A stretch of DNA of 64,000 nucleotides. Origin: Primulina eburnea. Lineage: Eukaryota; Streptophyta; Magnoliopsida; Lamiales; Gesneriaceae. The number at the start of each line of letters is the position of its first letter. Within the stretch, counting starts at the first letter, position 1. The DNA is taken from positions 18,881,054-18,945,053 of the forward strand of contig NC_133101.1 in assembly GCF_022965805.1 (NCBI RefSeq). The letters are read 5' to 3'. The notes under the pieces are model-generated. The model was not told the DNA's origin and did not search any database. It saw only the letters and a program-made list of their open reading frames with translations. Shown here piece by piece: positions 5,572 through 49,699 of the stretch. The position numbers and the translations under genes were made by a program.

Positions 5572-5608
5572 ACTCTCCCGCCTTAAAAGAAATTTCGTCC
5601 TCGAAATT
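5572..5608 (-). promoter_or_regulatory. TE3 polypurine tract and pre-PPT stem-loop
   Basis: Read on the minus strand, a perfect 7-bp inverted repeat AATTTCG / CGAAATT around an AGGA loop (5591-5608) is followed by the purine tract TAAGGCGGGAGAGT (5572-5585), which abuts the LTR at 5571. The stem ends 19 nt from the LTR and overlaps the chromodomain stop codon. The purine tract primes plus-strand DNA synthesis; the role of the stem-loop is unknown. Confidence 0.8.
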
Positions 5609-5873
5609 AGAACTCACCGAATAACTCGGGGTACCGACTCCTCATCTCTCGCTCAGACTCCCACATAGCTTCCTCCTCTGAATGGTTGAGCCATTTAACT
5701 TTGACTCGCCTAACCAACTTGTTCCGAAGTTTCTTTTCCTGCCGGTCTAGGATATGCACTGGTCTCTCCTCATAAGACAGGTTCGGAGTAAGCTGCAACG
5801 GCTCAAAGTTCAGAACATGCGAAGGATTTGCCATATACTTCCTTAGCATAGAGACGTGGAACACATTGTGTAC
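5607..5873 (-). pseudogene. TE3 chromodomain (C-terminal tail of integrase)
   Basis: This is the C-terminal end of the integrase, separated from the core by one TGA at about 5872-5874. The reading frame continues straight across that stop, so a single substitution split the protein. The segment has the chromodomain pattern of chromovirus integrases: a P-x-x-I-L-D stretch, a basic segment, the motif VKVKWLNH, then EEAMWE and a terminal RYPELF. In this family the chromodomain binds modified histone tails and steers integration into heterochromatin. The stop codon overlaps the start of the pre-PPT stem-loop. The family call is confident; function in this copy is lost. Confidence 0.85.
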
Positions 5874-6954
5874 TCAGGCCAGATTCGGCGGAAGAGCAAC
5901 ACGATAAGCTAGCGTTCCAACTCTGTCAAGGATCTCAAATGGTCCAATGAATCTCGGACTGAGCTTCTCTTTCTTTCCAAATCGCATAACAACTTTCATA
6001 GGTGCTATCTTCACAAAGACATGGTCGCCAACGACAAACTCTAGATTTCTCCTTCTCTGATTTGCATAGCTTTTCTGTCGACTCTGAGCAGTCCTCATCC
6101 TATCACAGATCTTGACTACTACATCGGCAGCCTGCTGAATAATCTCTGGACCCAACTCTGCTCTCTCTCCTACTTCATCCCAATGAACAGGAGATCTACA
6201 CTTACGGCCATACAGTGCTTCATACGGTGCCATACCAATAGACGACTGGAAACTGTTGTTATAGGTGAACTCCACCAATGGCAACTTCGATTCCCAACTC
6301 CCTGAGAAATCAATCACACAAGCACGGAGAAGATCCTCTAAGATCTGAATGACTCGCTCTGACTGACCATCTGTCTGTGGGTGGAACGCTGTGCTAAACA
6401 GCAACTTTGTTCCCATGGTCGAATGCAAACTCTTCCAAAATGAGGAAGTGAATCTGGGATCTCTGTCAGATACGATAGAAACTGGAATACCATGAAGTCG
6501 GACTATCTCCCGGATGTACAACTCCGCATACTGAACCATGGTGAAAGTCGTCTTAATGGGGAAGAAGTGCGCTGATTTGGTAAGACGATCTACAATCACC
6601 CAGATGGCATTCGATCCTCTGACTGACTTCGGCAAACCGGTCACGAAGTCCATGGTAACATTCTCCCACTTCCACTCGAGAATAGGGAGAGGCTTGAGCA
6701 AACCTGCTGGTCTCTGATGCTCTGCCTTCACTAACTGACAAGTCAGGCACTCGGATACAAAACGCCTGATGTCCTTCTTCATCCCTGGCCACCAGTACAA
6801 TAGCTGCAGATCTCTGTACATCTTCGTACTCCTTGGATGAATTGAGTACGGCGACATGTGGGCCTCTGATAGAATATCTGCTCGGATAGTATCACTACTA
6901 GGAACCCACATCCTGTCTCGGTATCTCACTATACCGTCGTTGACTGTAATAAAA
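5874..6954 (-). pseudogene. TE3 integrase
   Basis: Integrase joins the element's cDNA to host DNA. The readable segment is 351 residues from a GTG codon at 6929. That is not a true start, because the frame is entered from the RNase H side through a frameshift near 6950-6960. An HHCC zinc-binding domain is visible (H24, H31, C61, C64), then the catalytic triad D94, D155, E191, with the classic 35 residues between the last two. A GPF-type module lies near residue 335, before the stop that isolates the chromodomain. All catalytic residues are present, so the core was intact until recently. Confidence 0.9.
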
Positions 6955-7880
6955 TACTGCCCTTGGCCTCATCCCTCTGCTTCCATTGTGCCAACTGCTC
7001 ATCTGCGGACTGACCGCTGCGAATGCGGTCAATAAGAGAAGACTGAATCGTCAAGGTAGATAGACGGGGAACTCTACCTCGAGGATATGCCTCTAGATCA
7101 AACCCCTGCATCTCAGATTGAAGGGGTTTCCGAATCGTCAAATGCGCCATCACTGCGAATTTCCTGCTCAAAGCATCCGCAACTACATTAGATTTACCCG
7201 GGTGGTAGCTAATGTCACAGTCGTAATCCTTCACAAGCTCCAACCAACGCCTCTGACGCATGTTCAGCTCCTTCTGCGTAAAGAAATACTTGAGGCTCTT
7301 GTGGTCAGTAAAGATCTGGCACTTCTCTCCATACAAATAATGCCACCAAATCTTCAAAGCAAAAACTACTGCAGCCAACTCTAGATCGTGGGTAGGGTAA
7401 TTCTTCTCGTGGACTTTCAACTGTTGAGAATCATACGCTATCACTTTCCCATGCTGCATCAAAACTGCGCCTAAACCGAGCTTCAAAGCATCGGTATAAA
7501 GGACAAACTCGTCGGGCCCTGACGGCATGGCCAAAACTGGTGCTGAGATAAAAGCTTGCTTCAAAGTATCGAAGCTCTTCTGTCACTCATCGCTCCACAC
7601 ATATTTCACATTCTTCTTGATCAATGATGTGAGTGGAACGGCAATGGAGGAGAATCCCTGAATGAACTTCCGGTAATATCCTGCTAGCCCAAGAAAACTA
7701 CGGATCTCAGATGCATTCTATGGCACAACCCAATCTCTAACTGCTGCAACTTTCGCTGGGTCTACCTCAATACCACTGCTAGAAACAATGTGGCCTAAGA
7801 ACGCCATCTTCTCTAACCAGAATTCGTACTTACTGAACTTTGCGAATAATTTGTTCTTTTGCAATTCTGCAAAACTCTGG
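6929..7880 (-). pseudogene. TE3 RT C-terminal part and RNase H
   Basis: This segment follows the RT active site after a frameshift near 7905-7920. It begins with the RT thumb and connection, which contains an in-frame TAG at 7718-7720 and TGA at 7583-7585. The RNase H domain then reads openly from 7564. It shows the first catalytic aspartate (YTDA), the [15 protein letters not shown] segment with the catalytic glutamate, and [10 protein letters not shown]. It ends in a frameshift into integrase near 6950. RNase H removes the RNA strand during reverse transcription and creates the purine-tract primer. The combined damage makes pol non-functional. Confidence 0.85.
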
Positions 7881-8977
7881 TCAGATGTCTACTGTGATCC
7901 TCTTGACTCTTGAGTAGATGTCGTCTATGAACACTATCACAAACTGGTCAAGATACGGCTGAAATACGCAATTCATGAGATCCATGAAGATCACTGGCGC
8001 ATTCGTCAGACCGAACGGCATCACTAGGAACTCGTAGTGGCCATAACGAGTCCTGAAAGCAGTCTTGGAAACATCAGCATCTTTCACCCTCAACTGGTGA
8101 TAACCGGAGCGCAGATCAATCTTGGAGAATATCGAAGCTCCCTGAAACTGGTCAAACAGATCCTCAATCCTCGGAAGTGGGTATTTGTTCTTTACCGTAA
8201 CCCTGTTCAACTCCCGGTAATCAATGCAAAGTCTCATCGTGCCATCTATCTTCTTCACAAACAAGAATGGCGCGCCCCAAGGTAAAAAACTCGGGCGAAT
8301 GAACTCCTTGTCCAGAAGTTCCTGAATTTGCTTCTTAAGCTCTGCCATCTCTGTCGGCGCTAACCGGTACGGCGCTTTGGATATCGGAGTCGTACCTGGC
8401 ATAAGCTCAATGGAAAACTCCACCTCTCTCTCGGGTGGCATACAAGAGACGTCTTCGGGAAAAACGTCTAAGAAATCTCTGAAAATCGGAACATCTGAGG
8501 CTGACTGGCTGGGTTCCTCAGGGACAGATATAAAGGTTGCTAAAAATGCCCGACACCCTCTATGCATGAGCTTCCTAGCCTGAACATATGGAATAATGCG
8601 CGGTAAACGAAAGTACCTGTCCGGCTCGAATAAGAACTGCTCAATTCCTGGCGGTCGGACAAGAACAGATCTCCGCTGGAAGTCTATCAACACTATGTTC
8701 CATAATAGCCAATCCATCCCTAGGATGATGTCAAACTCTGGCATCGGCAACACGATTAGATCCGCATATACAATATTGCAATGGAGCTCAAGATCTATGT
8801 CTCGTATCACATTGGTGGCTGCCATCTCCTCGCCTGAAGGCAACACTACTGAATAGGCTATGTCTAGCCCAATGGTCTTGACTTTGAGAAAATTCGCAAA
8901 GACCTCCAAAATAAACGAGTGAGTAGCTCCTGAATCTATCAAGGCTTTTGTAGCTGAGCCAGCTATGAAAATTCTCC
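7881..8977 (-). pseudogene. TE3 protease and reverse transcriptase N-terminal part (exon 2)
   Basis: Exon 2 begins at 8977 after the predicted 3' splice site. The protease has the aspartic-protease motif DSGATHSFI at its N-terminal end and ILGMDWL further on. RT then starts with the PYRLAP segment and carries the [32 protein letters not shown] and MPFGLTNAP blocks, with the catalytic FIDD near residue 340. A small indel just after FIDD shifts the frame and ends the ORF. TTG at 8942 is only an internal Leu codon; the real entry is by splicing from gag. Confidence 0.88.
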
Positions 8978-9179
8978 CTGAAAGATCGAAACTCTAAGTT
9001 GAACCCAGAAATCTCGAGAACTATCCAATAGACGTGCAGAGGCCAAAGTTCTTCTAACTTAAATTCAAAAAAATAATACTGAGAAGAGCATGCAATCCTA
9101 TATCAGTTTCTAAGTTCAAAATCCTAACTCTGGTTCCCAAACGCTGAAATTCAAACAATAACTTAAAGCTTAAAGGTAC
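8978..9179 (-). other. Predicted intron between TE3 gag and protease
   Basis: On the minus strand the gag frame reaches ACAG|GTACC at 9180/9179, and TTTCAG|GGAGA lies at 8978/8977. Joining the two sites gives an unbroken frame from Gag residue 356 into the protease, whereas without splicing gag stops at 9163. The 202-nt segment is T-rich and has no coding character. It is inferred from sequence only; spliced transcripts would prove it. Confidence 0.7.
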
Positions 9180-10248
9180 CTGTCAACAACATAGTCTCCG
9201 GGTTTGTTTCCGTGGCATGGAGAGCAAAAACTCTGCCTTGGGTAGGCAGATCCCTCTGAGGGCACTGCAGCAACACGTGATCTGAACTGCCACACTTAGA
9301 ACACTTTCCTGAGCCATACATGCATGCTCCAGGATGGCGGCGTGAGCACCTGGGACAAACTGGGTGCTCAAAAGTCCTCGGGGCTGGGCGCCCCCGCTGG
9401 TGCTGCTGACCTCTGTTTCTAGGCAGCCCGTGAAAAGGCCTCTTTTTCTGCTGTTGATACTGCTGAGGAGGAGGGCGGTGCGGTACCTGGGCTGGGCGCT
9501 TGCCCTGGCGATCCCTCTCGATATCACGCTGATCCTGCTCTGCGGCTAGAGCTTTGGAGACAGCGATCTCATAAGTAGTAGGGTCAGACACCCTAACATC
9601 ACGGCGCAAGATCGGCCGTAGACCCACTAGGAAATGCATCATCTTGGCTCTGACATCATCAACGATCAGGGGCACAAAATGACAGCCCCTCTCGAACTTA
9701 CGGATGAACTCCGTAACCGTCATATCTCCCTGCTTCAGGCTCATGAACTCAGTGGTCAACCTGGTGCGCACTTCCTCAGCAAAATATTTGGAGTAGAAAA
9801 CCTCCGTGAAGCGGGTCCATGTCAGCGTAGCCAAGTTCAAGGCTACTGTCGCTCCTTCCCACCATAAGCGGGCATCTCCACTGAATAAGTAGGTGGCACA
9901 TCGGACTCTGTCTGCATCTCCAAGCTCCATCAACTCGAAGATAACCTTGAGGGATTTGATCCATCCCTCGGCAATCATGGGGTCAGACGTCCCAGAAAAC
10001 TCCTTCGGACGCATCTTAATAAACCTCTCATAGACAGCCTCGGGCCCTGTCGGCGTGGCTGCGGCTGCGGCAACGGCATTGTTCCCCGCAAACTGTGCGA
10101 AGAACCTGTTCATACCAGCCAGCATCTGGGCATTCATATCAGGCGGAGGGGGTGGAGGTAAGTCTTCCTCCCGCCTACGATCCTCACCGTCTTCATGACG
10201 GCGCTCGTCGCCACCTCTCGGGCATCCAACCTGGCGTCTAGGGGGCAT
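9163..10248 (-). CDS. gag: TE3 Gag
   Basis: Gag forms the cytoplasmic virus-like particle that packages element RNA. The ATG at 10248 is the first after the primer site and leader. The 361-residue frame has a basic, Arg-rich N-terminus, a polyproline run near residue 31, the retrotransposon-Gag core with an LWWEG motif, a Gln/Arg/Pro-rich linker and a CCHC zinc knuckle (CSKCGSSDHVLLQC) near residue 315. The last five codons lie beyond a predicted splice donor at 9179, so the transcript probably runs on into protease. This is the one gene of TE3 with no internal break. Confidence 0.9.
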   Translation of the reverse strand: MPPRRQVGCPRGGDERRHEDGEDRRREEDLPPPPPPDMNAQMLAGMNRFFAQFAGNNAVAAAAATPTGPEAVYERFIKMRPKEFSGTSDPMIAEGWIKSLKVIFELMELGDADRVRCATYLFSGDARLWWEGATVALNLATLTWTRFTEVFYSKYFAEEVRTRLTTEFMSLKQGDMTVTEFIRKFERGCHFVPLIVDDVRAKMMHFLVGLRPILRRDVRVSDPTTYEIAVSKALAAEQDQRDIERDRQGKRPAQVPHRPPPQQYQQQKKRPFHGLPRNRGQQHQRGRPAPRTFEHPVCPRCSRRHPGACMYGSGKCSKCGSSDHVLLQCPQRDLPTQGRVFALHATETNPETMLLTGTFKL

Positions 10249-10490
10249 ACTGTTCCATACATAACCCGTACGTAACTAACATGCATAATTCCATAATTTA
10301 TTTTAAATGAATATGAAATACTGAAAAGATCTGATCGTAAACTATTTCATGGGAGCATGCTGTCAAAATAATTCAGGCTTTAAATAAAATGCTGAAACGT
10401 AAAACTTACAGACCAAAGGCGTGACTTCGTGAGCTTTCCGTGGTCAGTAGTAGTGTAACCCTTTACAAGAACATAGGCTCTGATACCAAC
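10249..10490 (-). promoter_or_regulatory. TE3 primer binding site and untranslated leader
   Basis: On the minus strand the LTR ends at 10491, a GT spacer follows, and TGGTATCAGAGC (10477-10488) is complementary to the 3' end of initiator tRNA-Met. The remaining ~230 nt to the gag ATG is untranslated leader with no other recognisable feature. Confidence 0.9.
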
Positions 10491-13400
10491 TGTGAAGGCC
10501 TCTTATATCCTTGCTTGAAAAATTGCGGAAAATTAAAAATTTTCTTTTTTAAATAATTAAAATGCCCCATTCATAAATAAACCGATAAACAAAGTTTGAT
10601 GTTCAAAATGGTAGCGGAAGAAAATATTTGTTTGCAAAATAACAATTTAAGAGTATCCAACAACTAATAAAAAAATGTTTGCGTAAAATGACAAGTGCTG
10701 TAAATGAGGTCCTCGGGTGCCACTACTGCCGACCCAAGCTGGCTCACTAGTCCCCGCCCTCGGCCCCAACCTCATCAGTACCTACAACAATCAAGTCTAG
10801 TGAGACTAAAGACTCAGCATGCATATATCGTAGATAACGAGTAATTCATACAGTAAAATTTGCATGGGATAAAATATCGTGTCATGAGGCATACTGAAAA
10901 TAACTTGTACCGAGCAATTATAATACGTGCATAACTGAACTGAAAAATCATATTAAAATTTTTTCTCCTTGGAGCCCTGTACTGAATTAAAATGTAATAA
11001 TTTTCTGTTGAGATTATGGTCTAAGCAAGTGGCCCCTGCACTGAACTGAACTGACCGATAACTGGCTACCGGGGGGTAAAAAACTGAACTGACCGGTCAC
11101 TGGCGACCGGGTGGTACCAAACTGAACTGATCGGTCACTGGCGACCGGGTAAAATAATACTCCCAAGATAGTGAATTGACCACAAGCAATATCGCATAAA
11201 TCTCAAAAATAAGTATTTCTTATTTTTATGCACAGCAATAATTAAATGGCATAATGAAAATATCCTGAACTATTTTACCAACTGGATTGGATCGTTCCCA
11301 GGCTCGCTGCAACCTAAATATGCCATGAAAAATATGCAATAGATTTTTCTTGGGTAAACTATGCAATTAAATTCGAAAATTCGACAATTACGTCTAACAA
11401 CTTCGTATTTAATCATGACTCCGAACCAACCCGAACCAACACTGAACCGTCATAAAGTCATGATTAAAATACGCTTAAAATTATGAAATAATGCTCCTAA
11501 AATGGTGAGGGCCGAAATCTAGGTGAATGGAGGCCAAGACATGAAACGCTCTTTCGAGAGTCAATTTGACACATCGCACCGTAAATTCTCGTACGACCTC
11601 AAAAATGATCCGAATCACAAACGGTCAAAAATATGACCTTTCTAACTTGATGAGGCACTGTCCAGTCCAAGGCCATAGGCTAAAAGCCAACCAAGAACTC
11701 GAAACACACCTCTGAACCGACGACTTAGTTGCTGGAAAATTCCAGCAACAGCAACTTCGCTTGCATCGCATCATTTGCGAGACTTTTGGCCATTGGGGCT
11801 TGAACCACTGACCAGAGCCTCTTCCCAACATCCTAAGGTATGGTTTGAACCATGGCTAAGGGCCCTAGGCCAACCACAATCCCAACCAGCACCCATGACC
11901 AAATGAATCCCCACCCGAGAGCATATGTGAGCCGCGGGGGTGTTACTTTTGTTTGCTGTCTCGTGTCGTTCCCGTGGCCATTTTATTGACCATGGCTCAA
12001 TCTAGACATCCTGGGGTATGGTATAAACCGTGGCTAAGGGCCATAGGCCAACCAAGATCCACACCATTCCACCATACACGAACCAACACATGCTGTCAAA
12101 ATCAAAGGGGCCGAGAAGGGGAGGGGCTGTTCTTGGGTTTGAATGTAAAAACCGATTCACCATGGACCAAGCCACAAAAAGGGCGACTTAATCATGAATT
12201 ATACATGCTAGGGAAGTGATCTAACATGGCTATAGGCCCCTGGGGCAGCCAAGATCAGATCATTTCCCCTTGACAGCAAAACCGAATTTTCAAAGCACAA
12301 AATGGCAACGATGGAAAGCTGCTGTCATTTCCGGATTTCATCATGCATGGGGCTTGTTTGAATGGACCAACATGATCCTAATGCATCCTATTACGTGTCT
12401 AGATGTCACCTTGGGAGCCTGGAATCGAGCCAACCACCTGAATATACAAAAACAAGCAAAACCGTGAAGGCACAAGAGGAACCGAAAATTCTGCACTATA
12501 TTTTCGAAAATGCTTGACATATATTTCGGTTTTCTTGTATAAAATCATGTTCAAGTGATGTTTAAAAATAATAGTAAGACTTGATTGAAGAGCAAGAAAG
12601 ATATACAAATGCCTTTGTTTACGTTTGAAAGAAAAAAGAGAAGAAGAGACGATTCGGCGCGGAGAAGACGAAGTTGCTTCTCTTGTTTTCTTTCTTGTTT
12701 TTCTTCCTTATTTTTACCCTAGGCTCTCACGATTTTCAGTGCTGAAGGAGACTGAAATTTCGAGATTATGGAGTGGGAGGGAGTCTAGGAAATTAAATGG
12801 GAAGATACAAGATAAAGGGAAGGGAAATATTCTTTCTATCTACTAGTTTGAGCGATAAGGAAATAGAATGATATCAAAGACTTTTCTTGAGGATACTTGG
12901 GTCGCATATGGAAGATTTTAAGGTCTAGGTGCAAAGGGAGGAATGGTTTAATTAAATCTTGTTAGTGATTTAAAAGTTGGAGAGGATAAATCTATCTAGA
13001 AAAGTTAAGGGAGATAATTAAAGAATGAGTTGAAAATCACAATTAAATCTTTAAAAAAAGAAGGAAACATGGCCGATTTTATCTAGCTAGGTGGGGTGGG
13101 ATCTTGCTCAATTAATTATCATAGAAGATTTGTTGAGATAGAATTATCTCTCAATAAAATGGATAGGAAAATTATTAATTCAATGGGTAGCCAACTAAAT
13201 TTTTAACTTAAATCATTGGGGCCGAAAATTACAATAAAAGTGGAGGAAAAATATTTCTTAAATATTGTAATTTAAATCTTTAGTGTTTTATCTACTCATT
13301 AAATATTTTAAAGAATTAAGGAATTAATTATTGAACTCTATTTACTACTTATCTCAACTTATTTAAATAATTCCTTAAACCTTCTTTTACAATAAATTTA

Positions 13401-13635
13401 CTTATTATTTATCTTAAATAAATTTTAGGAAATGTTTTCTTAACATTAAATTTTATCTCTTTACTCCAACTCCGGTCCGGCCTCACTTAAAGAACTGAAA
13501 AGAATAAAATTTAAACTACTGAATAAAATAATTAACTTCAAATAAAGAATTTAAATATTCATGCAATGAAGTCAATTTAATTTAAAATACTAGAATTATG
13601 CATGGCTTATACGTAGTCTAATTACGGGTTCTACA
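10491..13635 (-). repeat. TE3 5' LTR
   Basis: On the minus strand it runs from TGTAGAACCCG at 13635 to GGCCTTCACA at 10491 and matches the 3' LTR throughout. Three dyads lie at 11055-11147 (CCGATA/TACCGG, CCGGTC/GACCGG, CGGTC/GACCG around ACTGGC). The ORFs inside, for example near 11950-12220, have no gene-like character. Confidence 0.9.
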
Positions 13636-15769: not shown

Positions 15770-15867
15770 TGTAAGGCCTGAGATTTGATTATTGTAATCA
15801 GAAATTGATTAATTGACAAGATTGCGATGAATGAAGGTTTTAGGAGCTCAAGTTACGAAACCGGGCG

Positions 15868-16087: not shown

Positions 16088-16133
16088 CTGAAATTTCAAA
16101 AAACAAGCCACGTATCTCCTGCATGCAATTTGA

Positions 16134-21493: not shown

Positions 21494-21531
21494 GATTTCG
21501 GGGACGAAATCGTATCTTAGAGGGGGAGAAT
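21494..21531 (+). promoter_or_regulatory. TE4 pre-PPT stem-loop and polypurine tract
   Basis: The inverted repeat GATTTCG / CGAAATC around a GGGA loop lies at 21494-21511. The purine tract AGAGGGGGAGAAT (21519-21531) abuts the 3' LTR at 21532. The stem ends 20 nt from the LTR. Confidence 0.85.
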
Positions 21532-23609
21532 TGTAAGGCCTGAGATTTGATTATTGTAATCAAAAATTGATTAATTGAGAAGATTGCGAAAAATGAAGGT
21601 TTTAGGAGCTCAAGTGACGAAACCGGGCGTTGGTGCATTTTACACCAAGATGTTGGACCGAACATCTGGCGCCCGAACGGTAAAATATGACCGCCCGAGC
21701 GCCAGTGTATCATAAATTGAGATTTTGGGCCAAAGGTTTGGTGCCCGAGCGGTAGTTTTTGACCGCGCGAGCGCCAGGAGATGTTCAGTTGAACATCTTG
21801 ACAGAAAATTCCGCACCTGAGCGGTGATTTACCACCGCCCGAGCGCCGACTGAAATTTCAAAAAATGAGCCACGTATCTCCTGCATGCAATTTGATATAT
21901 ATAGGTGCGATTTCCTTCATTTTCTTCAAAGGAAATCGAGAGAAGCTTCTGGGAAAAGGCTTCATTTCTTTATGTGGTCCAATTTCGATCGTGTGAGAAA
22001 TCCTTCCGTCCGATTTTGAATCCGACTTCAGTACTATGTTCCTATCAACGTAGGCTTCATACAGACGTAAGTTTTACTAAGTTTTGATATGATTTGAAAA
22101 TATGCTATTGAAGGAATTGGATATAATTCATATATGTTGTTCTCAAGACAGTACACATCGTATAAATGAAACCGGATTGAAGAATAGATACTGTACGGAA
22201 TTATTATGATTTTTTGAAGGAATTGATTGAGATTTGATATCAAATTTGTACCGTTACTGATTATAAATTGAGAATTTCTTATTATTATATGTTATGGATA
22301 TACTGATCAGGATATATTTGAAGTCAGATCGAAGAACGGACTGCTTATATAATTGTGATGATTTTCTGAAGCAATACGGTCGAGATTATACGGATTTGAT
22401 ATTATGATATGTTATTGTGAAGGTTATGAATTATATTGATATATTTATGAGTTGTGATATTACATCTGTGATGTTGAGGTTGACGGAGTTATTGAGACTG
22501 TGTTATTGTGCCATCGAGACAGCAGTAATTGATATTGATCAGAATATGTTTTGATTTGAATATTGATCCGACCAGGTCTTGAATTGAGTTATACATTGAA
22601 TGGTCTATCCGATATTGTCATTTCAGATTGGATATGGACAGATTTGACTTCGAGACTTCGACTTCGTCAGACCGAGAAGAGAAAGGTATAAATTGATGTT
22701 GATGAGGGATTGCACAACTCGAGTCCGATTAGACTGGAGATTCCCAAAATCACATACTTCATCTTATTGTATTGATATTTGCAATTGATGTGATTGATAT
22801 ATTTGGTTTATTGATTTATAATGTAGCAAAGGATATAGCAAAGTGTTATTGAGCGAGAGTCACTGACATAGGTGCCAGACTTGACTGAGTCGTCACTGGC
22901 CCATTGCACATTGTCAGAATAGGTATTGGCTGATGCGCCAAGTCTTCGGATGATTCGCCAAGACACTTGATATGTGATTTATACCGATGTCGCTTGGGAA
23001 TTGATTCATTCCTATCACTGAAATTCGGTATAGGTAACAATATTCCAGAAACCGGGATCCCTAGATTAGACAAGAAATGAGTCGAGTTGGAGATACCGAG
23101 TCAAAGTTGATTTACAGATTGATATTGAATTATGTTTCGTAGATTACGATGCATGTTCTTAATTACTATTTGATATTGATTTATGATTTCAGATTACGAT
23201 ACATGTCTTGATATCTGTTTCATGCTGTTACATATGTTTTTATATGATTGCATGTATACATGGTTTATACTGAGATTAAATTCTCACCGGAGTTATCCGG
23301 CTGTTGTCTTGTTTGTATGTGTGCATGACAACAAGTGGGACATGATCAGGGTCAAGAAGATGATGAGAGATCGAGATTAGAGTGGTGATTCTGGACTTTT
23401 TTCATTACTTGATTGTAGTAGTTGAACCTTAGTTTGAACTAGATGCATGTTGTACAAGATTTGTATTTTTATATTGATTTGTATAATAGATTGATTTCAT
23501 TACCTTCCGCATTTAAATAAAAAATAAAAATTTAGACCCTGTTTATATTAATGTATATAATTAGTCCCAAAGAATGATTAAGAAGATGATTAGCGTCCGG
23601 GTCCCCACA
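21532..23609 (+). repeat. TE4 3' LTR
   Basis: It is the same as 15770-17863 with scattered substitutions and a few short deletions. The hairpin array recurs at 21630-21849 and the TATA box at 21896. It ends GGTCCCCACA, followed by the target duplication AATGT and the resumed TE1 LTR. Confidence 0.9.
21630..21849 (+). repeat. GC-rich hairpin array in TE4 3' LTR
   Basis: This is a second copy of the 15868-16087 array. In its last dyad the right half reads ACCGCCCGAGCGCC, a better inverted match to the left half than the decayed version in the 5' LTR. Confidence 0.8.
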
Positions 23610-23705
23610 AATGTCAAAAATATTTTATGGTTCGGCCGAATGCTAGGTGAGCTTTGAAAAAAAAACTCTAGTACATTTTAAGAAAACGAATAGCAGGACA
23701 TTTAA
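23610..23705 (+). repeat. TE1 5' LTR, last part
   Basis: The TE1 LTR resumes after TE4 with AATGT and runs to its end at about 23705, in line with the end of TE7 (GACGTTTCA). The terminal CA has become AA. It contains the conserved GGTTCGGCCGAATGCTA stretch, also seen inverted in TE2 at 690-706. Confidence 0.8.
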
Positions 23706-24875
23706 GTTGGTATCAGAGCATAGGTCCTGAAAAAGGTTGTGCCACCATCATCGCCGGAAAGATCAGTCGTCAAGCCTCAAATTTGTAAGTTTTTACATGC
23801 TTTATATGATTAATTATGATATTACCTGCATAATTATATGAATTATATGTTTACGTCACATGTTTAGTAGCATCATGATAATATATGATTTATATGCTTT
23901 AGAATTTTTATACGTGATACGATATGAAATAAGAAATTATTTGATTTCAACGCATGTTGGCTTCGTGGTGGAATTGGACTATGTTGATTTTTGGGTTTTA
24001 GTATTGACATTCTACTTTTGGGTCATAAGTTAATCGTGAATATTATGAATGTTTTATGGGACACGAAGATTTTCTAAAAAAATATTAATGATTTGAGGAT
24101 TTTCAACGACTTTGGGAGTAAGAAAATGTATAAATTAGGATTTTAAGTTTGATGAAAGCTAAGATTGATTATATGAATTGATTTTTGGGTGAATAAGTTT
24201 AAATTATCGAAATTTATGTTATGGAAAACTCGTAGAAGAGAATTAAGAATACCAAAGACTTATGGGTTAATAGTAGGATTTTCGAAATTAAGGATCAATT
24301 AAGATAATTTTTGAGGAAATTAAGAATTAATTTTACAATTATTAAGGAATTTGAGGACTAGTTTAGTAATAAGTGAGAATTGAATGGGTTAAATGATAAG
24401 AATTTTCGATGATTTAGACTTTTAAGTGTTATAAGGAATGTTAATCAAGGGTTTTTAAGGATGAAACAATATTAGACTTGAAAAATCTAAGCGTTAGCGG
24501 ATGCGTTTGCGATTTTAAGATTGAAATTTGATAAGTTGATGAATATTTTGGGTATAAAATAAGGAAAATAATATACGATAAGCGCGGTCATCCATATTTT
24601 TATATTGGGAATTGTAAGAAAAATTGAAATTCGAGGTTATAATAGTAACAACACTAAGTCATTATGGGTCTTTTTAAGTTGAAATTCACAAATAAAGATT
24701 TAGAAGAAAAATTTAATTGGGATCAAGGAGACGTAAGGACGTTATAGAACTTAAGTTTTATCAGAGTAGCGCAGCGGAAGCGTGGATTTTTGGGATACTA
24801 GAATTAAGTCTAAACTTTTGATTATCGAGGATAAGCGAATTTCGAGGACGAAATTCAATTTAAGGGGGGTAAGAT
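23706..24875 (+). other. TE1 interior: primer site, gene-free body, stem-loop, purine tract
   Basis: TGGTATCAGAGC at 23708-23719 is the initiator-Met primer site, two bases after the LTR, as in TE3. The next 1.1 kb is AT-rich and has no ORF or recognisable gag or pol text on either strand. Near the end an 8-bp inverted repeat GAATTTCG / CGAAATTC with an AGGA loop (24837-24856) precedes the purine tract TAAGGGGGGTAAGAT (24861-24875). Only replication signals are kept, the hallmark of a non-autonomous element. Confidence 0.8.
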
Positions 24876-25791
24876 TGTAACGCCCCGAAAATTTAAAGGG
24901 TCCACGTAAACTACATGCATGCAATTATTAAATTTCATTTGCATTTTAATTATATGTTCTAATTTCATAAATTAATTATATTGTGCATATTGACATGTTT
25001 AAAATATATTTTCTACATGGTTGAATTAAAATGTATTTTTAAAAGGTTATTTGAGTTGCGATCGAGGAACGGAGACCGAGGGCTGAAAAATAGAAAATGT
25101 TTTTATTTGTTAATTGTTTTTAATTATTTAAATTAAAGGTGATGCTTTTACATATTTTTGAAAATATGGGGTTTTGAAGTGATTTTATACGCCGGGACGT
25201 AATTTTTATCAATGTTGGATTTTTTAACAAAAATACGAACGTATTGGCAACCCGGCTAATAAATTCACAAAAGTTATTCAAGAAAAATTATTTTAAATAT
25301 TTTAGTTAAACATTAATGGGCTAAGTGGGCTTAATTAAGTTTACTAATAGGCCTAAGCATTCTTAGTACATTAATTAGGTATATAATATATTAAACAACC
25401 GTCCCCCACTCTCATAAACTCACGGCCCACACCCCAATAATTGATAAACTCTCCCCCTCAAACACAAATACACGACACACACATCAATTTGTAGAGGAAA
25501 ATTCAAACAAGCTTCAAGTAATTCAAGCCAAGGTTCTTGCCTCGTTCTTCGCAATCGTCAACGAGAAATAGTGCGTTTAAAACGCTAAGGCGGCATATTT
25601 TTTTTCTTTAATCATCCATCACACCGTAGTATTTTATTTAATTGAATTTTGCATGAAAAACAAGTGACTTTTTATTTATTTTCATTTTTACATGATCATG
25701 GATTTTTAAAGCTTGGGTATTGTTTCAAAATCATGTTTATATGATGTTTAGGGGGCTGCCATGAATTAGGATATGAATAAGCATGTATTTC
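24876..25791 (+). repeat. TE1 3' LTR, first part
   Basis: It starts TGTAACGCCCCG and aligns with the start of TE7, including GTTGCGATCGAGG and the GGCTGAAAAA stretch. It stops at 25791, where TE5's TGTAAGGTCC begins. The remainder lies beyond the window. Confidence 0.8.
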
Positions 25792-38018: not shown

Positions 38019-38092
<74 letters not shown>

Positions 38093-38319: not shown

Positions 38320-39949
38320 TGTGGGGACCCGAACGCTAATCATGTTCTTAATCGTCTTTGGGACTAATTAATCAATTATGTAAACCAGGGTCTAATTTTT
38401 TTTTTAAAATGCGGAACGTTGTGAAATAAACTTCTACACATATCCGTATAAAAGTATAAATCTGATACTATATACAACAGTATTCAAACTAGGGTTAACT
38501 ACTACATATCAAGTGTTTAAACCCTATCTCTAATCCAAGTCCGGTGCCTCCACTCTAATCACGATCTCTTCTCATCTCATCAACCCTGAACCTGTCCCAC
38601 CTGTTGTCGAGTACACATACAGACAAGACAACAGCCGGATAAACCTGGTGAGAATATACTCCCAGTATAAATCAACGAAACATGCAATTATAAACATCAA
38701 TATAACACATGTAATCAGGTAACAATAATATGTAACAAAATCTGAAACATAGTCAATATCAATCAAACTGTCGACATACTCATAATTAAGACTAGACTCA
38801 ATCCTAGTCTAGGGATCCCGGTTTCCAGATGTGGTATTCCGATATCGACTTCCGTAAGAGGAGGAACCATAATTCTATACTCGATATGACCAATATCCTG
38901 GTATTCCAATATCGAATTCCGTAATAGAAGAATTCCTATTCCCTCTACTCGACATAACCAACCATCTGGTGTCCTGACCTAACCGTCAATGACTGTGATC
39001 CTATCGTCACTATCCTATCTTGGGATAATGTGCAATGTGCCAGTGATTATCCACCACTATCCGGCACTATTATCACAAGATAGTCATCTAAGATATGCTT
39101 TCTATCTATCCATAGAAACAAGCATTTCTAATCAAAGCAATGCAAATATCCATGCAATAAAATAAAGTATGTGATTTAGGGAAACTAGAGTCTAAACCGA
39201 CTCAAGTCCATCTCCCGATACCACATTGACTTATACCTTTGTCTTCGTGATCTGATGAAGACGAAGTCCCCAATTCCATTCTGTCCATAGCAATCTGAAA
39301 TCACAATCAATACTGAGTCTGATCAATATCAATTCACTGATGATTCGACGGTATAACAATACAGTATCAATAATCCCGTCAATCCCAACATCACTGATAT
39401 AATACAGAAACTCATAATTAGTATCAATACGAAATTCCCTATCAATTCTGTACAATCCCGCAATACCGGCAATACAATATCATTACAAACAAATCAATAA
39501 CTCATCTGCTTCCAATCTGACTGACATCAATATATCCAGTGATACAGTACAAATCATATATCAATTCCCATACCGCAAAATCGACAATACCATCATCCTG
39601 ATATCAAATCGGTGTAATTACAGTCGAACTACCACTAAAAATGCATAACAATTCTATACACAGTCCGTTCTTCAATCTGACTTCAATTATATGATGTCTA
39701 CTATGTCAAGAACATCATATATGACTCCTATTCAATTTAGACAATATCATAAATTCAAAACATGTCTAAACGTAGCAAAACTTACGTCCAGTTGTAGTCT
39801 ACGTTGATAGGAACTCGGTACTGATGTCGGATTTAAATTCAGACGGACGGATTTCTCGTAAATCACGATTCAAATTCTCGAAGAAAACTTGAAAGCGTTT
39901 CCTCAGATTTTCCTTTCTTTTTCTGTTTCTGAAGGAGAGAAATTGCTTG

Positions 39950-39965
39950 TTTATATATATATATA
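39950..39965 (-). promoter_or_regulatory. TATA box, TE9 3' LTR
   Basis: The minus strand reads TATATATATATATAAA about 55 bp after the palindrome array. The same element in the 5' LTR is at 45821-45836, about 515 bp into that LTR. Confidence 0.65.
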
Positions 39966-40019
39966 CATCTCCACGTTGCAAGCCAAAACCCAAGTGGCGA
40001 GTTTTCATTCTGCATGACT

Positions 40020-40300
40020 GGCGCATATGCGCGCACAATCCCGCGCATATGCGCCGAGAGCCTTATCCACGAATCCCCCTGCTCGCGCATATGCGCGAAC
40101 ACAAGTCGCGCATATGCGCGAGACCTACTGGAGTGCTCGCGCATATGCGCGCACTATCTCGCGCATATGCGCGAGACTTACAGTCTCGGCATTCATGCTA
40201 CTGGACCTGCCGCGCATATGCGCGCCTTCGGCCGCGCATGTGCGCCGATGGTTCTGCTCGATGCGCGCATGTGCGCGCCATTCTTCCGCGCATGTGCGCC
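40020..40300 (-). repeat. GCGCATATGCGC palindrome array in TE9 3' LTR
   Basis: Ten units of GCGCATATGCGC or GCGCATGTGCGC type are arranged as five pairs, with cores near 40020/40041, 40084/40107, 40137/40158, 40210/40231 and 40259/40286. Centre-to-centre distance within a pair is 21-27 bp. The overlapping ORFs on both strands (107-140 codons, Ala/His/Met/Arg-rich) are by-products of the repeat. Confidence 0.92.
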
Positions 40301-40480
40301 AACACATTTCTTGCACACGCAATCTACACCTTTTTAATGTGTTCCCGATCCGATTCGTCCCGTCTATAATTATCCCAATTAATTCAATTAATCATTTCCA
40401 GATTAATCTCAGATTACAGTAATCAATAATCCATTTCAGATTAATTCCAGATTACGGTAATTAAATTCTTGGGCCTTACA

Positions 40481-40518
40481 TTTCTCCCCCTCTTAGATCT
40501 GAGTTCGTCCTCGAACTC
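40481..40518 (-). promoter_or_regulatory. TE9 pre-PPT stem-loop and polypurine tract
   Basis: On the minus strand the inverted repeat GAGTTCG / CGAACTC with an AGGA loop (40501-40518) precedes the purine tract AAGAGGGGGAGAAA (40481-40494), which abuts the LTR. The stem ends 20 nt from the LTR. Confidence 0.85.
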
Positions 40519-43797: not shown

Positions 43798-44174
43798 GGG
43801 TCAGTAATAACAGGAGACCAATCCGTCTCAATCCCAATCCGGATCAGCTTACCTCTGATCAAGAATTGGTTCTGATCCAGTTTCATAAAATACATATTAC
43901 CAAATCAACTCCGATATACAGGTAACATGTAGCTTAATACACAGTAACAACATACTGAAATCGTAGCATATACAATGTAATTTCCACATTATATGCAATT
44001 ATACGCTATAGTCAATCCAGACAGTACAACATAATATCATGCTAGCATATACCATGCAATTCCACATTAAAATCAGTCACATGCTAGCAAATACATGCAA
44101 GGAAAGAAAATTCATTCTACCCCGCTCACTCTTCTCTATCTCAAGCTAAGGAACCTACCATTCTAGGAACTAAT

Positions 44175-44186
44175 GCTCTGATACCA
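44175..44186 (-). promoter_or_regulatory. TE9 primer binding site
   Basis: The minus strand reads TGGTATCAGAGC, five bases (ACAGG) after the LTR end at 44192, matching initiator tRNA-Met. The leader between it and gag (43798-44174) holds no other feature. Confidence 0.9.
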
Positions 44187-44191
44187 CCTGT

Positions 44192-46351
44192 TGTGGGGAC
44201 CCGGACGCTAATCATGTTCTTAATCGTCTTTGGGACTAATTAATCAATTATGTAAACCAGGGTCTAAATTTTTTTTTAAAATGCAAAACGTAGTGAAATA
44301 AACTTCTACACATATCCGTATAAAAGTATAAATCTGATACTATATACAACAGTATTCAAACTAGGGTTAACTACTACATATCAAGTGTTTAAACCCTATC
44401 TCTAATCCAAGTCCGGTGCCTCCACTCTAATCACGATCTCTTCTCATCTCATCAACCCTGAACCTGTCCCACCTGTTGTCGAGTACACATACAGACAAGA
44501 CAACAGCCGGATAAACCGGTGAGAATATACTCCCAGTATAAATCAACGAAACATGCAATTATAAACATCAATATAACACATGTAATCAGGTAACAATAAT
44601 ATGTAACAAAATCTGAAACATAGTCAATATCAATCAAACTGTCGACATACTCATAATTAAGACTAGACTCAATCCTAGTCTAGGGATCCCGGTTTCCAGA
44701 TGTGGTATTCCGATATCGACTTCCGTAAGAGGAGGAACCATAATTCTATACTCGATATGACCAATATCCTGGTATTCCAATATCGAATTCCGTAATAGAA
44801 GAATTCCTATTCCCTCTACTCGACATAACCAACCATCTGGTGTCCTGACCTAACCGTCAATGACTGTGATCCTATCGTCACTATCCTATCTTGGGATAAT
44901 GTGCAATGTGCCAGTGATTATCCACCACTATCCGGCACTATTATCACAAGATAGTCATCTAAGATATGCTTTCTATCTATCCATAGAAACAAGCATTTCT
45001 AATCAAAGCAATGCAAATATCCATGCAATAAAATAAAGTATGTGATTTAGGGAAACTAGAGTCTAAACCGACTCAAGTCCATCTCCCGATACCACATTGA
45101 CTTATACCTTTGTCTTCGTGATCTGATGAAGACGAAGTCCCCAATTCCATTCTGTCCATAGCAATCTGAAATCACAATCAATACTGAGTCTGATCAATAT
45201 CAATTCACTGATGATTCGACGGTATAACAATACAGTATCAATAATCCCGTCAATCCCAACATCACAGATATAATACAGAAACTCATAATCAGTATCAATA
45301 CGAAATTCCCTATCAATTCTGTACAATCCCGCAATACCGGCAATAAAATATCATTACAAACAAATCAATAACTCATCTGCTTCCAATCTGACTGACATCA
45401 ATATATCCAGTGATACAGTACAAATCATATATCAATTCCCATACCGCAAAATCGACAATACCATCATCCTGATATCAAATCGGTGTAATTATAGTCGAAC
45501 TACCACTAAAAAAACATAACAATTCTATACACAGTCCGTTCTTCAATCTGACTTCAATTATATGATGTCTACTATGTCAAGAACATCATATATGACTCCT
45601 ATTCAATTTAGACAATATCATAAATTCAAAACATGTCTAAACGTAGCAAAACTTACGTCCATTTGTAGTCTACGTTGATAGGAACTCGGTACTGAAGTCG
45701 GATTTAAATTCTGACGGACGGATTTCTCGTAAATCACGATTCAAATTCTCGAAGAAAACTTGAAAGCGTTTCCTCAGATTTTCCTTTCTTTCTCCGTTTC
45801 TGAAGGAGAGAAATTGCTTGTTTATATATATATATACATCTCCACGTTGCAAGCCAAAACCCAAGTGGCGAGTTTTCATTCTGCATGACTGGCGCATATG
45901 CGCGCACAATCCCGCGCATATGCGCCGAGAGCATTATCCACGAATCTCCCTTCTCGCGCATATGCGCGAACACAAGTCGCGCATATGCGCGAGACCTACT
46001 GGAGTGCTCGCGCATATGCGCGCACTATCTCGCGCATATGCGCGAGACTTACAGTCTCGGCATTCATGCTACTGGACCTGCCGCGCATATGCGCGCCTTC
46101 TGCCGCGCATGTGCGCCGATGGTTCTGCTCGATGCGCGCATGTGCGCGCCATTCTTCCGCGCATGTGCGCCAACACATTTCTTGCACACGCAATCTACAC
46201 CTTTTTAATGTGTTCCCGATCCGATTCGTCCCGTCTATAATTATCCCAATTAATTCAATTAATCATTTCCAGATTAATCTCAGATTACAGTAATCAATAA
46301 TCCATTTCAGATTAATTCCAGATTACGGTAATTAAATTCTTGGGCCTTACA
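44192..46351 (-). repeat. TE9 5' LTR
   Basis: It runs from TGTAAGGCCCAAG at 46351 (minus) to GGGTCCCCACA at 44192 and is a near-identical partner of 38320-40480. The palindrome array is at 45891-46171 and the TATA box at 45821-45836. Confidence 0.92.
45891..46171 (-). repeat. GCGCATATGCGC palindrome array in TE9 5' LTR
   Basis: This copy of the 40020-40300 array has all ten units and their pairing kept. It occupies 180-461 bp of the LTR. Differences from the other copy fall mostly between units. Confidence 0.92.
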
Positions 46352-47473
46352 ATGGATATAGTTCGATTAAAGCTTTTTCCTTTTTCTTTAAAAGATAAAG
46401 CTAAAACATGGCTACAAAATTTGAGATCGAGTTCAATAAGGTCATGGGAAGAAATGCAACAACAATTTCTTAAAAAGTTTTTCCCTTCCCATAGAACAAA
46501 CTCTTTTAAAAGACAAATTACAACTTTTTCTCAAAAACAAGGAGAAACATTTTATCAATGTTGGGATAGATATAAAGAATTACTTAATACATGTCTACAT
46601 CATGGTTTTGAAACATGGAGAATAGTGTCTCACTTTTATGAAGGTCTTATACCTAAAGATAGGCAAATGATAGAATTCATGTGTAATAGAACTTTTGAAG
46701 ATAAAAACCCAAATGAAGCTATGGAATATTTGGATTCATTAACAGAAAATGCTCAAAATTGGGATAATATAGGCACAATAGAACCACCAACAACTAAAAA
46801 CAATAATTCAACAAATGGAGGTGGTATCTATAATCTTAAAGATGATATAGATATTCAAGCTAAACTTGCATCTTTAGCAAGAAAAATTGAGTCATTAGAA
46901 ATGAAAAAGAGTGGTCAATTAAAAAGTATTCAAGAAATTGTTTGTCATATATGTGATACACATGATCATGCTACAAAAGATTGTCCAACATTACCTTCAT
47001 TTAAAGAATGTCTCCATGAACAAGCAAACTATGTTAACAATTATAAAAAACCAATACTAGATCTTTTTTCACCATCATATAATCTGGGATGGAAAAATCA
47101 TCCTAATTTTAGTTGGAGGAATGATATTAATGCACAACCTTCACAACAATATTTTCAAAATAACCAAAATCATCAAGGTTATATTCCTTATGTTACACCT
47201 CCAAGAAAAAACTTTGAAGATGTAATTCATGCATTTATCCAAAAGCAAGAGTCTATCAATATTCAAAACAGTCAATCTATGAGTGATTGGAAAGAAACTC
47301 TTGCAAAATTTGCATCTGCACTTAATATTCATGAAAAAGGAAAATTTCCTTCTCGACCTCAATCTAATCCTAAAAATCAAAATCAAGAATTAAAAAATGA
47401 AAAAATTGATCAGATAAAATCTGTTATTACCCTTAGAAGTGGTAAAATAGTTAATGATCCATATAGTCAATGA
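46352..47473 (+). pseudogene. gag: TE8 Gag, C-terminal part
   Basis: Gag resumes after TE9 in its former frame. The Athila Gag core follows (VRLKLFPFSLKDKAKTWL, then FLKKFFPSHRT and CWDRYKELL), then a zinc knuckle CHICDTHDHATKDC and the WKNHPNFSW motif. A frameshift near 47455-47470 ends this frame at TGA 47471, and the protein continues in another frame into protease. Apart from that shift the 370-codon segment is intact. Athila Gag packages RNA in the same way as other Gags. This is the only Athila copy here whose zinc knuckle is complete. Confidence 0.9.
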
Positions 47474-48149
47474 AAACAAGGATCATTTAAAATCAAAGAG
47501 TAAGGATGATAATCCTGATACTTTTGAGAATGATGATAACTTAAATTCTAAGAATGTTATGGTGAATGATAAATCATCTAAAATAGTAAATGAGTCAAAT
47601 AAACCTCCACCATTTCCTCATGCATTAACAAATCATAAAAAACCAAAAAGTGATTCTGATATCTATGAAGTTTTTAAACAAGTAAAGATAAATATTCCAT
47701 TATTAGATGCTATTAAACAAGTACCTTTCTATGCAAAATTGTTAAAAGACTTATGTACTGTGAAGAGAAAATTGCATGTGAAGAAGAAAGCATTCTTGGC
47801 TGAACAAGTAAGTTCTATTCTTCAAAACAATTCTAGTTTAAAATATAAAGATCCTGGTTGTCCAACAATTTCATGTATTATTGGAGAAAATAAATTTAAA
47901 AAAGCTTTGTTAGATTTGGGAGCAAATGTGAATTTACTTCCTTATTCAGTTTATGAAAAACTTAATTTAGGAGAATTAAAACCCACTTCTGTTACTCTCT
48001 TACTGGCGGATAGGTCAATCAAAATACCTAGAGGTATTGTAGAAGATGTGTTAGTTCAAGTTAATAAATTCATATATCCTGTAGATTTTATTGTTTTAGA
48101 TACACAACCAATAGAAATACATAATGAAATTTCAGTAATATTGGGGCGG
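47454..48149 (+). pseudogene. TE8 Gag-protease junction and protease, truncated by TE10
   Basis: After the frameshift, 232 codons are open to the end of the visible element. A charged linker is followed by the conserved Gag-protease segment (VKINIPLLDAIKQVPFYAKLLKDL, then FLAEQVSSILQNN) and an aspartic protease with active-site motif DLGANVNLLP. ADRSIKIPRGIVEDVLVQV and the start of the ILGR block follow. TE10 enters at 48150 within that last motif. RT and integrase should lie beyond TE10's other end, outside the window. Confidence 0.88.
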
Positions 48150-49661
48150 TGACCGATTATTTCGGTTGGGATTAATTCTAGCAAGCAGACTAGGTCAAGT
48201 TATAGTAAATGGACGAACAGTCCAAGTATCGATCCCACAGAGACTATTATTTAAATACTAAGATTTAGATTATTCGATTTAATCTAGGCAACGATAATAA
48301 GTGATTTGATGATTACTTAAACTAATTAAATTGAATTGATTTATGCTGAATAAACGACTAAAATCAAATTGACAGAAAAGCTTGGAACGGGGATTTTCAA
48401 ATTTAAATAAAATGACCGTAACACACAACGGTAACAAACTCAGATTTTTATCATGCACTGAAATTATTTAACTACATATTATTCGTTGTCACGATGCAAT
48501 TCTCTGATTTAATTATAAATCTATTTCTAGAATTTATAATCCTATTTTCATTTAACAGTCCAATTATTTCTAATTGAATTTAATCAAACAAAAACTCATT
48601 TATCAACGATGGAATTACAGCTGTCGCCTAAAGTCGCACATTGAAATCGAATACTATTTCTAGTCGATTTAACCGTGTGTTGATTAATGTTTTTGAAGCT
48701 AAATTCAATCTATTTTCTTTCGAGTCAAGATCGAACAACAAACATGCAAATAATTGGCCAAATTAAAAGCATGAGAATTATGCAAACATTAATCAATAAC
48801 ATGAAATAATTTTATAAATCAAACGATCCAACGAATAAACAAAAATCAATCGTTTGTCCCAATCGTGGTCCCGATCAAAAGAGAAACTACTCCATGAACT
48901 CGAAACTAAAACCAAATCTAATATTCGAATTCATGACTGAAAATAAGAAAAACGAAAGAGAAGAGAAAATCTCAGTGATGGTGCGCGGGTCTTGCGTGTG
49001 AAGTTCGCGATTTCCTCTCGTCTCTCCCAAGTCGTCGCCGTCCTTCAGAGTCGGAAATTTCTCGCCTTTTTTTCTCCAAAGTCGGCTGCCAAGGGTTCCC
49101 CTCTCGTCCAAAAGTCCGATCTCTATCTTATTTCTTTCTTTTTATTCTTCCAAATCTTCGCGAAATCTGATCTGAAACTATGGTACGCGGACCCCGTGTA
49201 GGGGTCCGGATCTGGGTCCGTGTAATGGCTAATAAATTGATTTCCAGAAAGTGCTTGGCACGGACCCCGTGTAGGGGTGCGGCATCAGGTCCGTGCTATC
49301 GCGCAAATTTTCTTTTCTCGCTGATGCTTGACACGGACCCATACACGGCGTCCGTCTTCGGGTCCGGGGGATCTCGATTTAATTCTCTTCTTTGCTTCTT
49401 CAGGAACGGACCCTTACACGGCGTCCGTGTATGGGTCCGGGTGCTCTCATTGTGATATTTTCCTGTTTTTCCGGGCATTTCTGACGTGGCACTGCGACAC
49501 TTGACTTTTCTTTCATTTCTTTGGCTTTCATCGACTTTTGGCCAAACCTGCAAATGCTGATAATAAAACGAATTAGGCGCAGAACTCGGAATAAAAACGC
49601 CAGATAAGCACGAATACGACAAAATAAAGACTCTAAAATGCTATATGATTCGTGCTTATCA
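48150..49661 (-). repeat. TE10 3' LTR
   Basis: It is 1512 bp, from TGATAAGCACG at 49661 (minus) to AATCGGTCA at 48150. It contains the Athila block CTGTGGGATCGATAC (minus, near 48229) and a dyad array at 49188-49445. The other LTR is not in view. A weak TATA-like AATAAAAAG lies near 49136-49147 on the minus strand. Confidence 0.85.
49188..49445 (-). repeat. CGGACCCC/GGGGTCCG dyad array in TE10 LTR (U3)
   Basis: Four units of about 60-75 bp occur. The first (49188-49208) is a perfect 8-bp inverted repeat CGGACCCC / GGGGTCCG with a GTGTA spacer. The others, near 49261, 49334 and 49406, are variants with GGTCCG or CGTCCG right halves. The array spans 216-473 bp from the LTR start, the same relative place as the arrays in TE4, TE6, TE9 and TE11. 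Confidence 0.9.
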
Positions 49662-49699
49662 ACTCCCCCACACTTAACCTTTGTTCGTCCTCGAACAAA
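49662..49699 (-). promoter_or_regulatory. TE10 pre-PPT stem-loop and polypurine tract
   Basis: On the minus strand the 8-bp inverted repeat TTTGTTCG / CGAACAAA around AGGA (49680-49699) precedes the purine tract TAAGTGTGGGGGAGT (49662-49676), which abuts the LTR. The stem ends 18 nt from the LTR. It has the same layout as the Tekay elements here but a different stem sequence. Confidence 0.85.

Follow-up and report, generated by a model that had tools for sequence, protein, structure and literature searches.

Our understanding of how the reverse transcriptase (RT) of a long terminal repeat (LTR) retrotransposon selects one polypurine tract (PPT) as its plus-strand primer is still incomplete: PPTs are variable, and RNase H has to cleave a single bond. 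We examined a 64,000-nucleotide stretch of the Primulina eburnea genome (NCBI RefSeq assembly GCF_022965805.1, contig NC_133101.1, forward-strand positions 18,881,054 to 18,945,053; hereafter the window), in which five Ty3/gypsy-like elements carry a perfect hairpin shortly before the purine tract that precedes the 3' LTR. The initial annotation of the window labelled four of them Tekay-type (TE1, TE3, TE4 and TE9) and one Athila-type (TE10), and proposed that the stems covary at a fixed distance from the LTR as a folded signal. We confirm that the structure exists and is conserved, and find it to be more general than first claimed. From its placement we infer that it may act in plus-strand priming.

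Hairpins at the 3' junctions

Two of the five hairpins lie on the plus strand. In TE1, GAATTTCG-AGGA-CGAAATTC (8 bp; 24837-24856) is followed by the spacer and purine tract AATTTAAGGGGGGTAAGAT (24857-24875), which places it 19 nt from the LTR start at 24876. In TE4, GATTTCG-GGGA-CGAAATC (7 bp; 21494-21511) is separated from the 3' LTR (21532-23610) by 20 nt of spacer and tract (21512-21531). The remaining three are on the minus strand: AATTTCG-AGGA-CGAAATT of TE3 (7 bp; 5591-5608), with 19 nt of spacer and tract (5572-5590) before the 3' LTR (2425-5571, starting at 5571); GAGTTCG-AGGA-CGAACTC of TE9 (7 bp; 40501-40518), with 20 nt (40481-40500) before the 3' LTR (38320-40480, starting at 40480); and TTTGTTCG-AGGA-CGAACAAA of TE10 (8 bp; 49680-49699), with 18 nt of spacer and 3' purine tract (GGTTAAGTGTGGGGGAGT; 49662-49679) before the 3' LTR (48150-49661, starting at 49661). 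Each matches the initial annotation letter for letter, and the gaps given there for TE1, TE3, TE4, TE9 and TE10 (19, 19, 20, 20 and 18 nt) agree with LTR starts obtained from self-BLAST and the terminal TG. The core TTCG-RGGA-CGAA is identical in all five, and the three outer positions that differ do so on both sides together, as had been claimed.

Such hairpins are rare by chance. On both strands of the window, NGGA-loop hairpins with a stem of at least seven Watson-Crick pairs occur at these five places only. Across 300 windows simulated with a first-order Markov model, RGGA hairpins of that size numbered 0.08 on average and two at most, and none fell within 20 nt of a G-run.

The hairpin is also found beyond the window. 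We analyzed an adjoining 240 kb of the same 812-Mb assembly, for a total of 304 kb, and an additional 20 kb from another contig of the genome. LTR pairs were located by self-BLAST with the hairpin ignored, after which the LTR start was set by TG; three starts moved by 1-2 nt between the locating of junctions and their scoring. Among 27 merged repeat pairs, 14 were judged by eye to be Ty3/gypsy-like with a visible 3' junction and one was added later, giving 15 junctions; the rest consisted of one copia-like element, one short-LTR element and repeats that were nested, partial or of another kind. The stem is perfect at 13 of the 15 junctions and has one mismatch at two (F5, with 8 of 9 pairs at its 3' junction, and F8, with 6 of 7). 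Twelve junctions have a perfect tetraloop stem of 7-8 bp, while F6 pairs perfectly over 9 bp around a loop of 6 nt, its hairpin being 13 nt from the LTR. When scored with a cut-off of 6.5 and the stem required 12-26 nt before the LTR, 13 of 15 junctions passed, F6 being lost to the distance window and F8 to its mismatch. Dinucleotide shuffles passed the same cut-off in 0.3% of cases and random genomic places in 1.2% when loops were 4 nt long, or in 1.3% and 3.4% with loops of 3-7 nt.

Junctions were also defined by sequence, as every run of five to eight G with TGTAR, TGTGA or TGATA within 9 nt, using a hairpin score cut-off of 5. The 24 junctions obtained overlap the 15 elements above and are largely the same elements. 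Eighteen have a perfect hairpin, five have one mismatch (two of these scoring below the cut-off), and the sole site lacking a hairpin does not resemble an LTR junction. As background, a hairpin was present at 13 of 142 other G-runs and at 6.5% of random places. The distance from hairpin to G-run is 6-11 nt at all 23 sequence-defined junctions bearing one, and at the 14 LTR-pair junctions (of 15) that had a hairpin call, 10-21 nt separate the end of the hairpin from the LTR. Two further hairpins of seven pairs, each preceding a purine tract, were found in the additional 20 kb. No such hairpin was present at the single copia-like junction scored in the 304 kb, and none was noticed, by eye only, in the flank of a short-LTR element of unclear type (F 146947/151327).

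The wider data therefore modify two details of the initial annotation. Its spacing of 18-20 nt holds for the five elements of the window but not for one Athila-type family, in which the hairpin is 13 nt from the LTR. Likewise, the core is not fixed: it also occurs as CTCG/CGAG, TTCA/TGAA, ACTG/CAGT and ACTA/TAGT, some copies carry one mismatch, and loops include AGGG, AGAGAC, AGGGAC and CGGAAAT. In one copy (L190 near 5111, minus strand) with the core TTCA-AGGA-TGAA, both CpG sites are altered jointly and pairing is retained.

The two labels can be set beside what the sequences contain. Tekay-type elements are presumably recognized by an initiator-methionine primer-binding site (PBS), a pol end near a chromodomain and a purine tract before the LTR; here GGTATCAGAGC adjoins several 5' LTRs, some copies have YPxLF pol tails, and a chromodomain scored 18.7 bits, under the cut-off of 25.1, in a plant-like copy discussed below (L055). 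For Athila-type elements, we take the marks to be a PBS like TTTTTGGCRCCGTTGCCGGGGA, an additional open reading frame (ORF) after integrase, and an internal PPT. TE10 has a matching PBS, an rve domain in ORF 53824-54729, an internal PPT and, between integrase and that PPT, an ORF (51462-52868, minus strand) matching PF20167 (Transposase_32, 'putative plant transposon protein'). At Rfam 15 gathering cut-offs, no family matched the hairpins and the sole match in the window was snoR71 (60641-60747, minus strand; 47 bits against a cut-off of 40). This match is antisense within ORF 60104-62866, the first part of which matches Retrotrans_gag, and the snoR71 model may be catching transposon sequence.

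Covariation of the stem and its reading frames

Two alignments were used to analyze stem changes. In the hairpin-blind alignment, comprising 12 distinct tetraloop rows that represent 14 elements (F6 left out), five of the eight pairs show two-sided change and the other three are invariant. It contains 14 two-sided cells against 4.9 expected, a number reached in 0 of 500 shuffles; the number of pairs with two-sided change was equalled in 4 of 500, and the only one-sided cell is at the outermost pair. A broader 16-row alignment was drawn from 28 scan hits and L055, after removal of duplicates, of the hexaloop family and of any hit not near a PPT; it includes scan-found and internal hairpins, and five of its rows were found via the hairpin itself. 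All eight pairs change on both sides in this set, with 28 two-sided cells against 7.5 in shuffles (0 of 500) and one one-sided cell, although relatedness of copies can exceed shuffles in such tests and independent events are fewer than cells. When the partner column was slid by 1-3 positions, paired cells fell from about 90% to 10-51% in both alignments.

The strongest single evidence of covariation is that families with unrelated stems have them in the identical position: TTTGTTCG/CGAACAAA, TTTTACTCG/CGAGCAAAA (with one A.C), TTATTACTA/TAGTAATAA and TTTTGCT/AGCAAAA. Covariation supports the fold, whose pairing is maintained by compensatory change. The wholesale replacement of stem letters with symmetry retained (ACACTG, TTATTACTA, TTTTGCT, GAATTTCG) is unlike a site read by its sequence. 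As a result, we consider it very improbable that the element is a palindromic binding site for a host factor or integrase, or a cruciform in the integrated copy, even though a symmetric core, TTCG-N4-CGAA, is common among Tekay-type copies.

Sequences from other plants provide further information. Two contigs filed as bacterial, L055 (NZ_JABGCL010000077.1) and L110 (NZ_QPKJ02000031.1), hold plant-like retrotransposon sequence with the hairpin GATTTCG-GGGA-CGAAATC, 18 nt before an LTR start that is presumed rather than taken from an LTR pair. They represent one family, apparently from the same plant contaminant in both, and not two lineages. The L055 copy, whose ORF is intact, has its TGA stop codon (L055:5550-5552) overlapping the first bases of the left arm. 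These two were among at least 150 bacterial and viral pattern matches, which were otherwise rejected as relatives and attributed to chance; as a negative control, the stem was extended by at least three additional pairs in 3 of the other 148 matches listed. In a second pattern scan, of 19 viral contigs, no junction looked plant-like by eye, and searching them for RT gave no confirmation.

Relatives of the pol C-terminus were also collected. Among the matches listed (120 of 7991, 120 of 916 and 50 of 50), 272 were distinct, of which 42 without a YPxLF-like anchor were dropped and 230 kept. Within this listed set, 182 of 230 tails end within 9 amino acids past the anchor, leaving the region untranslated there. 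An RGGA hairpin of at least seven pairs is encodable in 21 of the 46 unique longer tails and not in the other 25, compared with 1.4% of shuffled tails. The hosts named among the peptide hits listed include the eudicots Hibiscus, Gossypium, Erythroxylum and Cucumis. Across the 21 hits the region is read as FED (14 hits), SRT/SGT (six) or RGR (one). Since three reading frames are used, the protein is not the conserved thing.

Flanking codons of the FED frame were compared as well. For 15 FED-frame octapeptides, chosen by eye (11 hits and four misses) with tails judged motif-free excluded and P values therefore only indicative, flanking codons are reverse-complement compatible at the second position in 15 of 15 cases (6.7 expected, P 0.00015) and at the first in 14 of 15 (10.8 expected, P 0.03). 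The figure is 1 of 15 at the third position, mostly outside the stem (3.6 expected). Two-sided changes are evident even without codon knowledge, as between N-F-E-D-E-I and I-F-G-D-E-N or F-E and S-G.

Several reading frames of the hairpin region also occur in this genome, and the hairpin can be translated. The pol stop of TE3, TAA (5607-5609, minus strand), shares its last two bases with the left arm; in F7 and F8 it is about 70-90 nt upstream of the hairpin; and in one copy there is no pol stop before the G-run and the frame continues through the hairpin. Twelve of the 20 junctions in this survey had no usable pol tail (11 without a match, one spurious). A coding or stop-codon function was rejected because multiple frames and stop distances are in use.

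It could still be argued that structure is not selected, and that coding or inherited text only appears paired. Much of the core is common to Tekay-type copies, and related copies inflate the shuffle tests. Nevertheless, we find this barely credible given two-sided changes nearly without one-sided cells, Athila-type families that pair using unrelated letters, and the use of three frames among the peptide hits and several in this genome. The proposal of a folded signal under selection is instead strongly supported by the two-sided changes at every pair in the wider set, the hairpins at all 15 LTR-pair junctions (two with one mismatch) and the three reading frames in other plants.

Purine tracts and a proposed role in plus-strand priming

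Internal purine tracts suggest what the hairpin accompanies. TE10 has a second hairpin, absent from the initial annotation: ACACTG-AGGG-CAGTGT (6 bp; 50966-50981, minus strand), which precedes the internal purine tract AAAGTGTGGGGGTGGG (50943-50958, minus strand). This tract has AAGTGTGGGGG in common with the 3' tract. Similarly, F5 has an internal hairpin with one mismatch, GTGCACTG-AGGG-CAATGCAC, and an internal tract, TAGTATGAGGGGG, that matches its own 3' tract (hairpin and tract within L174:3440-3500). Stem letters of the internal hairpins differ from those of the 3' hairpins in both elements, and no LTR start is present at either internal site. At random positions, the frequency of an RGGR-loop hairpin with five of six pairs ending 5-16 nt upstream is 0.15%. 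Because a different hairpin precedes the internal tract in these two Athila-type elements, the hairpin is tied to the purine tract and not to the LTR or a stop codon.

For the same reason, plus-strand priming or RNase H positioning is the best fit among the functions suggested in the initial annotation. We lean slightly towards the view that the hairpin is a cis-acting structural part of a plus-strand primer module in Tekay-type and Athila-type plant Ty3/gypsy elements, and, with the same narrow preference, that this module is ordered as hairpin, short T/A-rich spacer, purine tract and U3. Its role in priming would follow from its link to both purine tracts.

A packaging signal, also suggested initially, gained no support. 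The hairpin could be a packaging, dimerization or Gag-binding signal of genomic RNA that is near the 3' end by happenstance, and stem-loops with purine loops are common nucleocapsid targets. In addition, a 3.2-kb non-autonomous element (L195:3714-6941), which needs packaging in trans, retains the hairpin. This element is very young, with LTRs of 1434 bp that are 99.86% identical, and its interior of about 360 nt has kept PBS, hairpin and PPT. However, a packaging role leaves unexplained the hairpin copy at each purine tract and the near-fixed distance to the PPT, and the observed loops are not palindromic, hence form no simple kissing dimer. We consider this role improbable.

A possible mechanism of priming can be outlined. 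RT copying the genomic RNA would pass the PPT and then encounter the base of the hairpin. A pause there could keep the RNase H site, which trails behind, close to the PPT/U3 junction, such that the 3' end of the primer would be cut precisely at that junction. After removal of the RNA, the same palindrome in minus-strand DNA could refold, marking the 5' edge of the surviving primer. Both the pause and the strand that acts are speculative. In HIV-1 RT, the polymerase and RNase H sites are 17-18 bp apart, which agrees with the gap of 17-21 nt.

Folding predictions bear on the strand. For pieces of 62-64 nt from TE1, TE3, TE4, TE9 and TE10, z-scores were -0.9, +0.7, -3.1, -3.0 and -2.6 as RNA and -4.0, -2.2, -2.7, -2.0 and -3.8 as DNA, with the hairpin within the minimum-energy fold in 10 of 10 pieces. 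In 300-nt context, hairpin probability was at least 0.5 in 13 of 16 cases as RNA; as single-stranded DNA, mean pair probability was at least 0.81 on either strand in 16 of 16 (for F5, over the inner four pairs only). In some folds the PPT paired with upstream pyrimidines, but this was set aside because not all five share it. On these predictions, the acting strand may be RNA or minus-strand DNA.

The working form might be solely a hairpin in minus-strand DNA. It would fold after RNase H removes the RNA on its 5' side and serve as a fence that fixes the 5' end of the primer or blocks displacement, with no RT pausing. The hairpin is indeed predicted more evenly in single-stranded DNA than in RNA across the 16 cases, but weaker background folding of DNA lets any hairpin stand out. 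Four of six single-mismatch hairpins (O21935, O161326, F5 and F5 internal) have a sense A.C that is G.T on the minus strand, yet such cases are scarce, were classified by eye and may reflect methyl-cytosine decay instead. Furthermore, without wobble pairs covariation is blind to strand, and sense G.U is found only at the outermost pair (three in the 16-row alignment). This form alone seems rather unlikely to us.

Several observations weigh against the primer module. As RNA, the pieces from TE1 and TE3 are no more stable than their shuffles (z -0.9 and +0.7), and in 300-nt context the RNA hairpin is weakly predicted in F7 (0.0), F14 (0.05) and F9 (0.32). The internal hairpins are short (6 bp) or mismatched (7 of 8 pairs) and are 13-14 nt from the G-run. 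Unpaired cells amount to 9 of 96 in the hairpin-blind alignment, seven of them at the outermost pair, and to 13 of 128, mostly at that pair, in the 16-row alignment; the count of further pair types is not unusual, being reached in 94 of 500 and 56 of 500 shuffles respectively. In L195:3714-6941, the hairpin is so close to the PPT that a deletion could have spared it by chance. In Ty3 RT, the polymerase and RNase H sites are reported to be separated by about 13 bp (PMC5371799), and a simple pause at a gap of 17-21 nt would thus leave RNase H 4-8 nt short of the junction. This shortfall would disappear if the plant enzyme resembled that of HIV or stalled before reaching the stem, and F6 (gap 13 nt) and other families cannot all fit a single ruler.

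A broader proposal is more tentative. Possibly, two separate Ty3/gypsy lineages of plants mark each plus-strand origin by a hairpin that RT or RNase H reads by shape, and the hairpin, not purines alone, distinguishes the tract used from numerous other G-runs. Athila-type elements would then have two marked origins, with perhaps an internal plus-strand start like that at the lentiviral central PPT. If true, a shape-coded mark by the PPT, kept by compensatory selection and found at each of the two PPTs in two Athila-type elements, would be a directly testable determinant of primer choice. It would also serve as a practical landmark for locating internal PPTs and 3' ends in plant Ty3/gypsy elements and for orienting them, even in non-autonomous ones that lack genes.

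Comparison with known systems

A literature search, with most subscription journals outside its reach, did not turn up any account of such a hairpin in Ty3/gypsy elements; among the matches listed for the motif letters, titles looked unrelated. Related features are known. Retroviruses and Ty1 have a T-box or U-box preceding the PPT, and fission-yeast elements have TCTT before it (PMC10085805). This, too, is a cis element located immediately 5' of the PPT, and it contributes to plus-strand priming or may set the primer 5' end; unlike the hairpin, it is a sequence element, and the accessible part of that account describes no compensatory change (PMC10085805). TTAA/TTAG spacers and T-rich flanks are visible near the PPTs here.

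SHAPE-MaP has been used to map RNA structure in the PPT region of Ty3, also a Ty3/gypsy element. According to the available sections of that study, the PPT itself is in a base-paired region of lower predicted probability, and no dedicated preceding hairpin is reported in them (PMC11381356). Athila4 and Calypso have an additional PPT upstream of the 3' PPT, as do TE10 and F5; the portion of the source at hand does not mention a hairpin there (PMC2829016).

The nearest precedent found is the inverted repeat of Sireviruses, described in 2010. It likewise has a precise position linked to the terminal PPT in plant LTR retrotransposons, and the authors suggest that it aids correct PPT primer formation by RNase H (PMC2829016). 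Its layout is different. In Sireviruses, the left arm borders the PPT directly and the right arm is inside the 3' LTR, whereas here both arms precede the PPT, enclose a loop of 4-7 nt and are separated from the G-run by 6-11 nt at 23 junctions. Upstream PPT copies in Sireviruses are described there as being without the repeat, while the internal PPTs of TE10 and F5 each have a hairpin of their own.

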